From the NCBI RefSeq assembly GCF_023805295.1, contig NZ_JAMSHT010000001.1, positions 1,240,001-1,304,000 of the forward strand: a stretch of DNA of 64,000 nucleotides, written 5' to 3'. This document shows positions 33,433 to 38,003 of the stretch, piece after piece (positions within the stretch are counted from its first letter, which is position 1; each line of letters begins with the position of its first letter). The notes under the pieces are model-generated. The model saw only the letters and a list, made by a program, of their open reading frames with translations, searched no databases and had not been told where the DNA came from. Origin of the DNA: Sphingomicrobium sediminis (GTDB lineage Bacteria; Pseudomonadota; Alphaproteobacteria; Sphingomonadales; Sphingomonadaceae). Made by a program: the position numbers and the translations under genes.

Positions 33433-34848
33433 CTAGATGTGCAGCACGCGCCCGTAGGCGCTCAGCACCGCCTCGTGCATCATCTCGCTCAGCGTCGGGT
33501 GCGGGTAGACCGTGTTGATGAAGTCCGTCTCGACCAGTTCCGCCTGCTTACCGACCGTATAGCCCTGGATGAGCTCGGTCACTTCCGCGCCGATCATGTG
33601 CGCGCCCAGGAGTTCTCCCGTATCGGCGTCGAACACGGTCTTGATGAAGCCCTGCGTTTCGCCAAGCGCAATCGCCTTGCCGTTGCCGATGAAGGGGAAC
33701 TTGCCGACCTTCACCTTGTGGCCGGCTTCCTTGGCCTTGGCCTCGGTATAGCCCACGCTCGCGACCTGTGGGTGGCAGTAGGTACAGCCCGGAATGTTGC
33801 GCACGTCCATGGCATGCGGATGGACGTCCTTATTGCCGGCTTCCTGCGCGATCGCTTCGACGCAGATAATGCCCTCATGGCTGGCCTTGTGCGCGAGCCA
33901 GGGCGGCGCGGTCACGTCGCCGATCGCCCAGATGCCCTTCACGTTGGTGCGGCACATGGCGTCGGTGTCGATATGACCCTTGGTCGTCTTCACGCCCAGT
34001 TTCTCGAGCCCGATATTCTCGGTGTTGGGGACGATGCCGATGGCGACGATGCAGTGCGAGAAGCTCTTTTCCTCGACCTTGCCCTTCTCGTCCTTGATCT
34101 TGGCTTTGACGCCCGATTTGTCGGCCTTGAGGCTCTCGACACCGGCCTTGGGCATGATGGTCATGCCCTGATTCTTGAGCTGCTTCAAAAGCTCCGCCGA
34201 AATGTCCTCGTCCTCGACGGGGACGATGCGGTCCATCATTTCGACCACGGTCACGTTAGCGCCCATGTCGTTATAGAAGCTCGCAAACTCGATCCCGATC
34301 GCGCCCGAGCCGATGACCAGCAGGTCCTTGGGCATTTCCTTGGGCACCATGGCGTGGCGATAGGTCCAGATCTTCTCGCCATCGGCCGGCGCGAAGGGCA
34401 GGTCGCGCGCCCGCGCGCCCGTTGCGACGATGATGTTCTTGGCGGTTAGCTGCGTCTTCTTACCGTCCTCGGCAGTGACGGTCATCTTGCCCGCCGCATC
34501 GATCGCGCCATTGCCCATATGCACGTCGATCTTGTTCTTCTTCATGAGGCCGGTGACGCCCTGGTTGAGCTGTTTCGCGACCCCGCGCGAGCGTGCCACG
34601 ACCTTGTCCAGGTCCATGCCCACATTGTCGGCCTTCAGCCCGAAGCTGTCGGCATGCTTCATGTGGTGCAGGATCTCGCCCGAGCGCAGCAGCGCCTTGG
34701 TCGGGATGCAGCCCCAATTCAGACAGATACCGCCCAGGCTCTCGCGTTCGACGATCGCCGTCTTCATGCCGAGTTGGCTGGCGCGGATCGCGGCGACATA
34801 GCCGCCGGGTCCCGAACCGAGGACGATGAGGTCGTAATTATTGGCCAT
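33433..34848 (-). CDS. lpdA: Dihydrolipoyl dehydrogenase (E3)
   Basis: 471 residues. FAD motif GSGPGGYVAA at 11-20, redox cysteines C42 and C47 in ICLNWGCIPTK, NAD motif IGSGAIGIEFASF, and the C-terminal YPHPTLSEMMHEA with the catalytic His. It re-oxidises the lipoyl arm of 2-oxoacid dehydrogenase complexes, giving NADH. Closeness to pdhC marks it as the pyruvate dehydrogenase E3. A second E3 gene ends the window at 63.7 kb. Confidence 0.97.
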   Translation of the reverse strand: MANNYDLIVLGSGPGGYVAAIRASQLGMKTAIVERESLGGICLNWGCIPTKALLRSGEILHHMKHADSFGLKADNVGMDLDKVVARSRGVAKQLNQGVTGLMKKNKIDVHMGNGAIDAAGKMTVTAEDGKKTQLTAKNIIVATGARARDLPFAPADGEKIWTYRHAMVPKEMPKDLLVIGSGAIGIEFASFYNDMGANVTVVEMMDRIVPVEDEDISAELLKQLKNQGMTIMPKAGVESLKADKSGVKAKIKDEKGKVEEKSFSHCIVAIGIVPNTENIGLEKLGVKTTKGHIDTDAMCRTNVKGIWAIGDVTAPPWLAHKASHEGIICVEAIAQEAGNKDVHPHAMDVRNIPGCTYCHPQVASVGYTEAKAKEAGHKVKVGKFPFIGNGKAIALGETQGFIKTVFDADTGELLGAHMIGAEVTELIQGYTVGKQAELVETDFINTVYPHPTLSEMMHEAVLSAYGRVLHI

Positions 34849-35192: not shown

Positions 35193-35735
35193 TTAGCCGG
35201 CCACCTGCACATATTTGGCGTAGACCCAGCCCGACTGACACTGGCCGTCATAGGCACGCGTCGCGGGCACACGGTCCATCACACCGCACCGGTCGCGACC
35301 GCGAAACAGCGAATTATCGTTGGTGTAGACGATGCCGATCCAGGTGCCGGCATCATTCTGGTCGCAGATGATGATGGGATGGCCCTGTCCCAATTTGTCG
35401 ACCTGCGTGGCGCGCGACGACGGTGCCTCGCGCACGGCAAGGAAGTCGTTATCGCCCCCGGTCATCGGCAGATTGGCGACCAACGCGCCCGAGCGGCAGG
35501 CAGTCGACCCCGGCCCATCCAGCCCGACCCGCACGGCGCGGCGTGCAGGTGTCGGCGGCGGCGCGGGCTCGGCTTGCGCCGTGGTTTCCTCCGTCTCGTT
35601 AGCGCCGTCGGTCTCGGCCGCATCCTCGTCGCCCGACAGGAACGGCAATTCCGTATCCCCCCGTCCCAGCATGAACGCGATCACGGCAACCAAGATGACG
35701 ATGATGGCGATCAGCCCGCCATTACCCTTTTGCAT
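35193..35735 (-). CDS. Membrane-anchored SH3-like domain protein
   Basis: 180 residues. An N-terminal helix (about 8-24) anchors it, followed by an acidic and Pro/Ala-rich linker (about 28-65). The C-terminal part has an SH3b layout: FLAVREAPSSRATQVDKLGQGHPIIICDQN, given as strands FLAVREAP and GHPIIICD, then GTWIGIVYTN and GWVYAKYVQVAG. Four cysteines may form disulfides in the periplasm. Bacterial SH3 domains of this sort often bind cell-wall peptides. Function unknown. Confidence 0.75.
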   Translation of the reverse strand: MQKGNGGLIAIIVILVAVIAFMLGRGDTELPFLSGDEDAAETDGANETEETTAQAEPAPPPTPARRAVRVGLDGPGSTACRSGALVANLPMTGGDNDFLAVREAPSSRATQVDKLGQGHPIIICDQNDAGTWIGIVYTNDNSLFRGRDRCGVMDRVPATRAYDGQCQSGWVYAKYVQVAG

Positions 35736-35810: not shown

Positions 35811-36593
35811 CTAGGGCTTGATCGGGCGCTTCTTGTTGTCGGCCGTGGTGGCGACGAAGGTGAAGGTGCCGCTGGCGACGTCGAATTCGCGTTCGCCGTC
35901 GCGCTCGCGTCCCTTGGCAGTGGCGCGGATGGTCATGCTGGTCGTGCCTTCGCGGACCAGTTCGGCATAGACGCTGAGTTCGTCCCCAACCTCCATTGCG
36001 CCGGGAAAAGCGAGGTCGGTGGCCGCGACCACGACCGCCTTGCCCTTCGAATGACGCGAGGCAAGCGAGCCCGCCGCGAGCGCCATCTGGCTCATCAGCC
36101 AGCCGCCGAAAATGCCGCCATAAGGATTGGTGTCCGACGGCATGGCGGTGACGCGGATGAGGGGTACGTCAGGCTGAGCTTCAATCAGCTCACCCGGACG
36201 CACTCCCAAAGCATCGGAAAGTCTCGCCATCCAATCTTGAGTAAGCCGCCTATCTCCGGCCTCCAGCATTGAAATCTGGCTATGGGTAGTTCCCAACAGG
36301 TTGGCCAACTCAACCTGCGTTAGGCCCCGTGTATGACGCAATTCCGCGATGCGATTGCCGCGATCACTGTCGGCCGAAGCTCTACCCGGTGTCGGATGAC
36401 GATCCAAAATGTCCCCCGGACTACAATCGAGGGCAGTTGCGAGCTTTCGCAACCAAGATTCCGAAAGTTTTCGTCTGCCCGTTTCTAGATATCCAATCGT
36501 CGCCTGCGTAGTGCCGACTTTATCGGCAAGTTGCGACTGAGTTAGACACCGGTGATTGCGCCATTCTCGCAAGAAACCATTAGTTGTTGGCAC
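35811..36593 (-). CDS. Tandem XRE helix-turn-helix / YciA-like hotdog fusion protein
   Basis: 260 residues from a GTG that shares its G with the pdhC stop codon (TAGTG). Two Cro/CI-type HTH domains occupy about 6-62 (LTQSQLADKVGTTQATIGYLE) and 79-137 (LTQVELANLLGTTHSQISMLE), followed by a hotdog domain (about 144-260) with MPSDTNPYGGIFGGWLMSQM, the YciA signature. YciA enzymes have Asp in GDIFGGW and Asp in SQMD; here they are Gly160 and Ala171. So it probably binds rather than hydrolyses acyl-CoA (inference). The HTH-coding DNA is about 50-55% GC, the hotdog part about 67%. Position suggests control of pyruvate dehydrogenase. Confidence 0.85.
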   Translation of the reverse strand: MPTTNGFLREWRNHRCLTQSQLADKVGTTQATIGYLETGRRKLSESWLRKLATALDCSPGDILDRHPTPGRASADSDRGNRIAELRHTRGLTQVELANLLGTTHSQISMLEAGDRRLTQDWMARLSDALGVRPGELIEAQPDVPLIRVTAMPSDTNPYGGIFGGWLMSQMALAAGSLASRHSKGKAVVVAATDLAFPGAMEVGDELSVYAELVREGTTSMTIRATAKGRERDGEREFDVASGTFTFVATTADNKKRPIKP

Positions 36594-37903
36594 TAAGCCA
36601 CCAACCCCATCGGGTTTTCGACCAGCTTCTTGAACGCCTGCATCAGGCGCGCGCCGTCGGCGCCGTCGATGGCGCGGTGGTCAAAACTGCCGGTGGCGCT
36701 CATGACGGTCGCGATCTGCAAGCTGTCGTCGATGACGTGGGGGCGCTTTTCGCCCGCGCCGACCGCCAGGATCATCGCTTGGGGCGGATTGATGACGGCG
36801 TCGAACTGCTTGATGCCGAACATGCCCATGTTGGAGATGCTCGCCGTGCCACCCTGATATTGGTGCGGTTGCAGCTTGCCTTCCTTGGCGAGCCCGGCCA
36901 GCTCCTTCATCGCGGTCGAGATGCTCGACATGCTGCGCTCATTGGCATTCTCGATGATCGGGGTGATGAGCCCGCCATCGATACTGACCGCGACCGAAAT
37001 ATCGGCGCGCGAATATTTGATGAGGTCGGTGCCGGCGAACGATACGTTGCACTCGGGCACTTCGATGAGCGCCAGCGCAAGCGCCTTGATCAGCATGTCG
37101 TTGACGCTCAATTTGATGCCGCGATCCTCTAGGCTCTTGTTCAGCTGGCTGCGCAGCTTGAGCAGTTCGTCGAGTTGGCAGTCGACCGTCAGGTAGATAT
37201 GCGGGATCTGCTGCTTCGCCTCGGTCAGGCGACGCGCAATCGTCTTGCGCATGTTCGAGAGCTTCTCGACCTCGTGCGGGATTTCCAGCGGTTCGACGTC
37301 CGCAGGCGCAGCCGCCGGTGCGGGCGCACTGGCCGGGGCCGCAGCAGCCTGCGAAGCCGGTGCCTTGCCAGCCGCCGCGTCAATGTCGGCACGCACGATG
37401 CGGCCATTGGGGCCGGTGCCCGTCAGCGTGGTGAGATCGATGCCCTGCGCTTCGGCAAGGCGGCGCGCCAGCGGCGAGGCCTTCACCCGCTCGCCATCCT
37501 TGGTCGGCGCGGCGGGGGCCTTGGTCTCGGCAGGCGCGGGTGCTGAAGCAGGTGCAGGCGCGCTGTCGCGGCCATAGCCCTTGTCGGGCGTCGGCGCGGC
37601 TTCGGGTGCGCTCTTGGCTTCGGGTGTGGGCGCGTCGGCGGACGGCGCGGAAACTTCCTCGCCTTCCTCGCCGACCATCGCGATCACGGTGCCGACCGCA
37701 ACATTGTCGGTGCCTTCCTCGACGAGGATTTTCAGGAGCACCCCCTCGTCCACGGCTTCGAATTCCATGGTCGCCTTGTCGGTCTCGATCTCGGCGAGAA
37801 GGTCGCCCGAACTGATCGTATCGCCTTCCTTGACCAGCCACTTGGCCAGCGTGCCCTCTTCCATCGTGGGCGAAAGCGCGGGCATTTTCAGTTCGGTTGC
37901 CAT
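36593..37903 (-). CDS. pdhC: Pyruvate dehydrogenase E2, dihydrolipoamide acetyltransferase
   Basis: 436 residues. One N-terminal lipoyl domain with the lipoylated Lys43 in [12 protein letters not shown], an Ala/Pro-rich linker, a peripheral-subunit-binding domain near 130-170 ([19 protein letters not shown]), a second linker, and the catalytic acetyltransferase core ending with [15 protein letters not shown] (His409, Asp413). It makes acetyl-CoA from acetyl-lipoyl. AGGAGG precedes the ATG. The E1 genes are not in the window; the upstream neighbour is divergent. Confidence 0.96.
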
Positions 37904-38003
37904 GATTCCTCCTGTCTTGCCCGCCTCAAAGCCGATGCACCCGGAACCGTCAAGACTTGCGATTATCGTTACGGCGGGGCAGCCTCCCCGTCAGGAGAGA
38001 GAC

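Follow-up and report, generated by a model that had tools for sequence, protein, structure and literature searches.

A gene between pdhC and lpd encodes two XRE domains joined to a hotdog

The window, meaning the whole stretch of 64,000 nucleotides from Sphingomicrobium sediminis that was analyzed, carries genes of a PDH operon on its reverse strand. Two of them flank a gene whose product joins two helix-turn-helix (HTH) domains of the XRE type to a YciA-type hotdog. The hotdog belongs to a class without either of two aspartates known from YciA thioesterases, here called acid-less; hotdogs with both are called D/D. The features are as follows.

33433..34848, reverse strand: lpd, for dihydrolipoamide dehydrogenase (E3), assigned by eye from the translation; in relatives it adjoins the hotdog gene
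35193..35735, reverse strand: gene that separates the fusion gene from lpd; its small product matches SH3_3 weakly (25 bits; cut-off, 27)
35811..36593, reverse strand: XRE-XRE-hotdog fusion gene, 260 amino acids; its GTG start overlaps the pdhC stop codon by one common base (TAGTG)
35814..36164, reverse strand: YciA-type hotdog of the acid-less class, residues 144 to 260 (alignment, Pfam, model, and fold search)
36030..36032, reverse strand: Val188 (in the alignment, all 46 D/D rows have Thr here, and all 171 acid-less rows have Val or Leu)
36081..36083, reverse strand: Ala171, where HI0827 YciA has the catalytic Asp44 (alignment; extracts from PMC2698920)
36114..36116, reverse strand: Gly160, where GDIFGGW has Asp (translation and alignment)
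36126..36128, reverse strand: Asn156 of the hotdog (in the alignment, kept in 170 of 171 acid-less and 46 of 46 D/D rows)
36180..36359, reverse strand: HTH domain 2, residues 79 to 138 (Pfam HTH_31)
36411..36572, reverse strand: HTH domain 1, residues 8 to 61 (Pfam HTH_3)
36593..37903, reverse strand: pdhC, dihydrolipoamide acetyltransferase (E2), upstream of the fusion gene
37904..38003, no strand: 100-bp leader between pdhC (reverse) and a universal-stress-like gene (forward, named by eye), with no inverted repeat above shuffles

E1 is encoded outside the window, since none of the seven Transket_pyr matches in the genome lies inside it. An earlier note on this DNA had proposed two Cro/CI-type HTH domains followed by a YciA-like hotdog at residues 144 to 260, and both parts were borne out. 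HTH_3 and HTH_31 score 86 to 87 bits for the whole protein (Pfam cut-offs, 23 and 27), which marks the HTHs as XRE (Cro/CI) domains, and 4HBT matches residues 159 to 227 with 43 bits (cut-off, 20.6). The AlphaFold2 model for which the note had called has a mean pLDDT of 88.7 and shows two five-helix HTH domains and a hotdog; the HTH assignment comes from Pfam and this model, while the fold search covered the hotdog and, with the alignment, gives it the YciA/ACOT-type fold. Among the closest solved relatives of the hotdog is 3bjk, the Asp44Ala mutant of HI0827. With the fusion protein minus its first residue as the query, the NCBIfam YciA model NF007970 scored 70.1 bits against the hotdog, below its equivalog cut-off of 162 bits. 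The YciA string at residues 154 to 165, DTNPYGGIFGGW, as well as Gly160 and Ala171, are where the note had placed them. The net charge is +3 for HTH 1 and -2 for HTH 2. The architecture is beyond chance: in-frame XRE-hotdog fusions in ten other organisms, together with the AlphaFold2 model, support it, and those fusions rule out chance or misassembly as its origin.

Two classes of hotdog without intermediates

Asp44 of HI0827, with which Ala171 aligns, was shown to be catalytic by mutagenesis (extracts from PMC2698920) and lies in a depression lined by K52 and residues 58 to 61 and 125 to 131 of one subunit and residues 29 to 35 of the other (extracts from PMC10560148). It is the only residue named as catalytic in the extracts from these two papers. 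The search yielded 263 hotdog loci (179 plus 84), of which 262 were long enough to compare; leaving out one hotdog shorter than 100 amino acids, and duplicates, gave 216 distinct hotdogs. Neither acid was present in 171 of these, both were present in 45, and no hotdog was mixed. With HI0827 added, the alignment set 46 D/D rows against 171 acid-less rows, and every acid-less row had Ala (132 rows), Gly (38 rows), or Val (1 row) in place of Asp44. Besides position 188, further positions switched between the classes include 199, 227, 240, and 242. FGGW, Asn156, Arg147, Arg229, Arg231, and Arg256 are kept almost throughout both classes, Gln169 is present in all 171 acid-less and in 42 of 46 D/D rows, and 140 of the 171 acid-less rows have Asp or Glu at position 193. 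Judged from these alignments, the acid-less hotdogs look like a coherent class, not like products of decay. An active acid elsewhere in the hotdog, which the earlier note had named as a finding that would tell against its reading, did not appear; no newly invariant acid is peculiar to the acid-less class in the alignment of 171 acid-less and 46 D/D rows.

The earlier note had regarded Asp in both GDIFGGW and SQMD as typical of YciA thioesterases. This stands for the second, the catalytic Asp44 (extracts from PMC2698920), but does not hold throughout for the first, as Cj0915 of C. jejuni keeps Asp44 and has Asn in GDIFGGW. A second YciA-like paralogue (L266 to L285) likewise reads GHIFGGW...QMD in 20 of 20 Sphingomicrobium copies fetched, with His for the first Asp and the equivalent of Asp44 kept. 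The eight other 4HBT matches of the window genome proved not to be YciA-like in tblastn (E value, 0.01).

The acid state requires two changes on a 196-row FastTree, where no branch divides all the D/D rows from the rest, two rows being astray; a single loss of the acids is not established, because of these two changes and the split of the D/D rows. Nor did acid loss prove to be a trait of the fusion, as the earlier note had implied, because 160 of the 171 acid-less hotdogs carry no fused HTH. For the same reason, acid loss very probably preceded HTH acquisition, and the idea that acid loss made the regulator is ruled out.

Unlike HTH domains are fused to the hotdog in eleven organisms

An in-frame N-terminal XRE HTH was found in 11 of the 171 acid-less and in none of the 45 D/D hotdogs (Fisher P = 0.13), so that its restriction to acid-less hotdogs is not significant. 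The fused proteins come from the window genome (two HTHs), G011, G018, G030 (S. nitratireducens), G007 (S. astaxanthinifaciens), G325, G185 (MAG PRO20), G103, G114, Erythrobacter vulgaris (two HTHs, of different types), and one uncultured Erythrobacter, whose contig begins inside the HTH. In one Pfam test of eight fusion proteins, seven showed HTH and 4HBT and the cut one showed 4HBT only; the G114 HTH scored 24.4 bits (cut-off, 23), and the G103 HTH was assigned from its 84% identity to that of G185. The count of at least 11 is a lower bound, and the class proportions given here are not frequencies: at least 200 of the 397 family genomes searched had a match, the better-scoring part was fetched, hence the few D/D forms, and the best 80 of 549 further hotdog matches were kept. 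A six-frame HMM scan of the 263 loci (some genomes twice; in the 84-locus set, from 2,500 bases before to 1,500 after the hotdog) found no standalone XRE gene near unfused hotdogs; the home-made XRE HMM missed the weak HTH of one fused protein (L081) and could have missed other weak HTHs. Of 14 in-frame extensions of hotdogs, the 13 other than that of L081 looked on inspection like translation out of frame.

A tree of 56 rows was built for PdhC plus hotdog from the fused rows, the five nearest to each, 14 random rows, and six D/D rows, without L018 and L172. Its 10 fused rows require at least seven changes of fused state, either gains or losses; the 196-row FastTree gave six changes with nine rows marked, G114 not yet among them. 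The window and G007 sequences are sisters (support, 99/93), as are those of G011 and G030 (99/87). Within these pairs, hotdog identity is 91% and 96% and the HTH parts are not recognizably alike; across them, HTH identity is 42% between the window and G011 and 58% between G030 and G007. HTHs exchanged among species, or lost differentially from an ancestor with two of them, would account for this crossed pattern as well as four independent captures. In all nine fused genes measured (all but G114 and the cut Erythrobacter gene), GC3 is 50 to 63% in the HTH part and 80.7 to 94.8% in the hotdog. The hotdog is under purifying selection (dN/dS of 0.10 to 0.20 in three close pairs), and so is the HTH in the one unsaturated close pair (0.27), dS being saturated in two of the four HTH pairs; for G011 and G018, at high divergence, the values are 0.33 (HTH) and 0.40 (hotdog).

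With middling confidence, we read the fusion protein as a DNA-binding regulator of the one-component kind that was assembled at this locus, in which XRE heads sit on an acid-less YciA-type hotdog that is possibly responsive to CoA. The sequences suggest that XRE-hotdog fusions across related bacteria may be a new, putative class of regulator.

The HTH domains resemble those of phage repressors, and the pdhC leaders show no repeat above shuffles

When the HTH pair of the window protein was compared with the 397 family genomes (at most 10 candidates scored per genome), 15 had a match at an E value of 1e-9, including the window genome and the fused G185. The closest relatives found for HTH 1 were small standalone XRE proteins (44 to 56% identity), and for HTH 2 the HTH of an XRE-S24 (CI-like) repressor (57 to 58% identity). 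The G011 HTH gave 15 matches in the same genomes at an E value of 1e-7, the best at 47% identity. HTHs of eight fused proteins match PHROG families, mostly phage transcriptional regulators and repressors, and tblastn with the window and S. nitratireducens HTHs found 11 and 8 phage records, with repressor annotations on several. Chromosomal regulators commonly have XRE domains of this type too, and because these are so widespread, the phage similarity shows the type of the HTHs and does not prove a phage origin.

These relatives are what one would expect if phage-repressor heads had been domesticated, with an inert hotdog in place of the CI dimerization domain, to confer superinfection immunity against phages or prophages with a matching operator and no metabolite sensing. 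The unlike HTHs of sister species, as an arms race would give, and their low GC3 also favor this explanation. Against it, the phage similarity is weak evidence in view of the many chromosomal XRE regulators, the PADLOC matches of the window protein fall in the HTHs only, among the matches listed (25 of 27), and the placement in a central metabolic operon is left unexplained. We consider it rather unlikely.

The DNA around pdhC also bears on the favored reading, a one-component regulator. Inverted repeats were sought in 110 bases of the leader of 13 pdhC genes, and between 22 and 100 of 100 shuffles did as well as the best repeat. If a feedback loop on PDH were conserved, the HTH and the operator should be conserved with it, and neither was seen in the HTH comparison or the 13 leaders. 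The unlike HTHs of sister species, and the lack of a repeat above shuffles in these leaders, make it less likely that the protein has a conserved role at pdhC. The turnover of the HTHs argues against a conserved PDH autoregulator.

The fusions occupy a variable slot in the pdhC-lpd operon

In the stretches examined, pdhC lies upstream of 168 and lpd downstream of 159 of the 171 distinct acid-less hotdogs; each adjoins 36 of the 45 D/D hotdogs. The acid-less form lies between pdhC and lpd mostly in Sphingomicrobium and Erythrobacter-type genera, and the D/D form takes that position in Sphingomonas, Novosphingobium, Sphingobium, and Stakelama. All 71 Sphingomicrobium genomes had some match to the query, the best match in about ten, including the near-complete G031 and G047, being only the second paralogue or an HTH. 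A class-wide sample of 385 genomes gave 15 with a match; apart from the window, the 14 hits were all D/D, three of them in the same family beside pdhC and lpd and 11 outside it. No lpd was seen with those 11, and one (L310) had a weak E2-like match (29%). At three loci of one genus (L136, L159, and L169), D/D and acid-less hotdog genes lie side by side, in both orders, which suggests tandem duplication.

The slot between pdhC and the hotdog is hypervariable in an otherwise conserved PDH operon (e.g., L005, L021, L038, L093, and L163). In 195 distinct loci taken as unfused, L081 included before its fusion was recognized, the gap was shorter than 90 bases in 54 and held an open reading frame (ORF) in 139; one of the two loci without a slot ORF must be L081, and a few of the ORFs, which came from a mechanical caller, looked by eye like out-of-frame artefacts. 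The slot ORFs are varied, many being membrane- or lipoprotein-like with hydrophobic stretches. In the acid-less class their median GC3 is 62.7%, as against 81.9% in the hotdog (105 ORFs), and 13 ORFs of one small membrane family have 78.6%, as against 76.7%. Ten of 126 slot proteins called "other" were tested with Pfam; nine had no match, and the tenth was below the cut-off. Known defense genes were rejected as the cargo, a weak Csn2 match (E value, 0.007) being the only one among nine proteins tested. At L093, a partial copy of the hotdog start (about 2372 to 2491) lies upstream of a slot ORF and an intact hotdog, a possible footprint of insertion.

Fusion is thus one outcome among several in a slot with much traffic, and this is the main reason for caution. 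XRE genes landing there might simply be read through into the hotdog, which would keep a PDH-related function, with no regulatory role for the fusion. The varied or empty slots of the loci taken as unfused fit such a passenger origin, as do slot proteins that Pfam does not recognize and the fused state of E. vulgaris beside an unfused row 98% identical to it on the 56-row tree. However, all 11 XRE cases share the reading frame of the hotdog, and no unfused case was found; at one-third each, chance would give this with a probability of about 0.04 if three broad HTH types are each counted once and 5e-5 if nine events are counted, start-site bias being ignored. The purifying selection on the HTH in the pair tested also speaks against a passenger, which we judge unlikely.

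A candidate regulator built on a YciA-type hotdog

The regulator reading draws support from the domains and the AlphaFold2 model, from two hotdog classes without intermediates whose positions switched together, from the operon position, and from eleven in-frame fusions, with at least seven changes of fused state and no standalone XRE gene found in the scan of 263 loci. Low HTH GC3, purifying selection, phage-repressor relatives, and the precedent of FapR add to it. On the other side are the charge of -2 on HTH 2, an HTH turnover too fast for a conserved metabolic regulator, the lack of a palindrome above shuffles in the leaders, and the unrelated small genes of low GC3 that the slot also takes, which makes chance cargo possible; weighed with these are the fusion not being significantly confined to the acid-less class and the single acid loss not being established.

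In the regulator reading, the YciA thioesterase gene that has its home in the pdhC-lpd operon has an acid-less relative, kept by selection, that probably no longer hydrolyzes acyl-CoA; the residues, the operon position, and the conservation are observed. XRE modules, some of the phage-repressor type, would have been fused in frame into the gap before this hotdog and been gained, exchanged, or lost repeatedly, leaving two in the window protein; the fusions and their turnover are observed, the direction of the changes is not. The hotdog probably oligomerizes as YciA does, as a trimer of dimers, and would so present paired HTHs to DNA. It may have retained CoA binding, and occupancy of the pocket by CoA or acyl-CoA may alter the spacing or flexibility of the HTHs and hence DNA binding, comparable to malonyl-CoA in FapR. 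The DNA targets are probably lineage specific, and not one conserved pdh operator, because the HTHs differ between sister species. That the protein is an acyl-CoA sensor, as the earlier note had put it, is something that we infer; the DNA-binding pair on a YciA-type hotdog without the catalytic Asp, adjoining pdhC, is supported. A bolder and quite doubtful extension is that a conserved, catalytically dead thioesterase in the PDH operon serves the Sphingomonadaceae as an oligomeric CoA-gated chassis, repeatedly fitted with phage-repressor heads that can be exchanged, and so links the supply of acetyl-CoA to lineage-specific silencing of genes or phages.

That the hotdog is a thioesterase with another catalytic residue, localized or regulated by the HTHs, is very improbable, since the residues kept nearly throughout (Asn156, Gln169, and Arg147, -229, -231, and -256) and the frequent Asp or Glu at position 193 must be set against the replacement of a residue shown to be catalytic in HI0827 (extracts from PMC2698920) in all 171 rows, the loss of Thr188 alongside, and the lack of a new class-specific acid.

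The one-component regulator that we favor has its nearest functional precedent, as the earlier note had suggested, in FapR, the malonyl-CoA repressor of Bacillus and Staphylococcus, which carries an N-terminal HTH on a noncatalytic hotdog effector domain (extracts from PMC516016 and PMC2698920) and is described as a rare hotdog that has lost enzymatic action and regulates (extracts from PMC2698920). The window protein has the same plan of HTH plus a hotdog without the catalytic acid. FapR, however, has one DeoR-like HTH and is described as confined to firmicutes in extracts from PMC516016, whereas the window fusion has two XRE HTHs, its relatives have one or two that vary between sister species, and the YciA-type hotdog is found in Alphaproteobacteria. 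From the YciA thioesterases (HI0827, Cj0915, and y2039), the window protein differs in the replaced equivalents of Asp44 and Thr61, in the added HTHs, and in its score below the NCBIfam YciA cut-off. With CI/S24-type phage repressors it shares XRE HTH modules, including the nearest relative found for HTH 2 and the phage records matched by the S. nitratireducens HTH, but it has no S24 domain; its C terminus is 4HBT instead, with no S24 match listed by Pfam. RamB and PrpR (ScfR) are XRE regulators of acetate and propionate metabolism that also combine an XRE HTH with an acyl-CoA-responsive domain, although that effector domain is not known to be a hotdog; the RamB model matched the window protein in the HTH only, with 31.8 of 700 bits.

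The earlier note knew of no described tandem-XRE/YciA regulator, and among the matches listed, the open-access literature likewise gave no description of an XRE-hotdog or XRE-YciA protein. Hotdog domains as regulators are rare, with FapR the named example (extracts from PMC2698920 and PMC516016), and the XRE-YciA fusion would be a variant of such regulators with an unusual evolutionary pattern: an acid-less YciA relative with XRE domains in eleven organisms, the DNA-binding part differing between near-identical backgrounds. If this holds, it offers a natural experiment on building regulators from enzyme and phage-type parts. Among the open-access matches listed, no study dealt with the conserved, apparently noncatalytic protein itself, which a large bacterial family has in its PDH operon.

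Other genes of the slot

Slot genes of about 87 amino acids (LESVGLGGDGDE...WVTVGDVW) are conserved in several genomes (L096, L102, L105, and L114); the two checked, one full and one a fragment, had no Pfam match. The SH3-like protein at 35193 to 35735 has, by eye, a G.DGP/GLEGP...AC motif in common with proteins encoded upstream of the hotdog in other genera (L086 and L097), as if its gene had moved between slots upstream and downstream of the hotdog.
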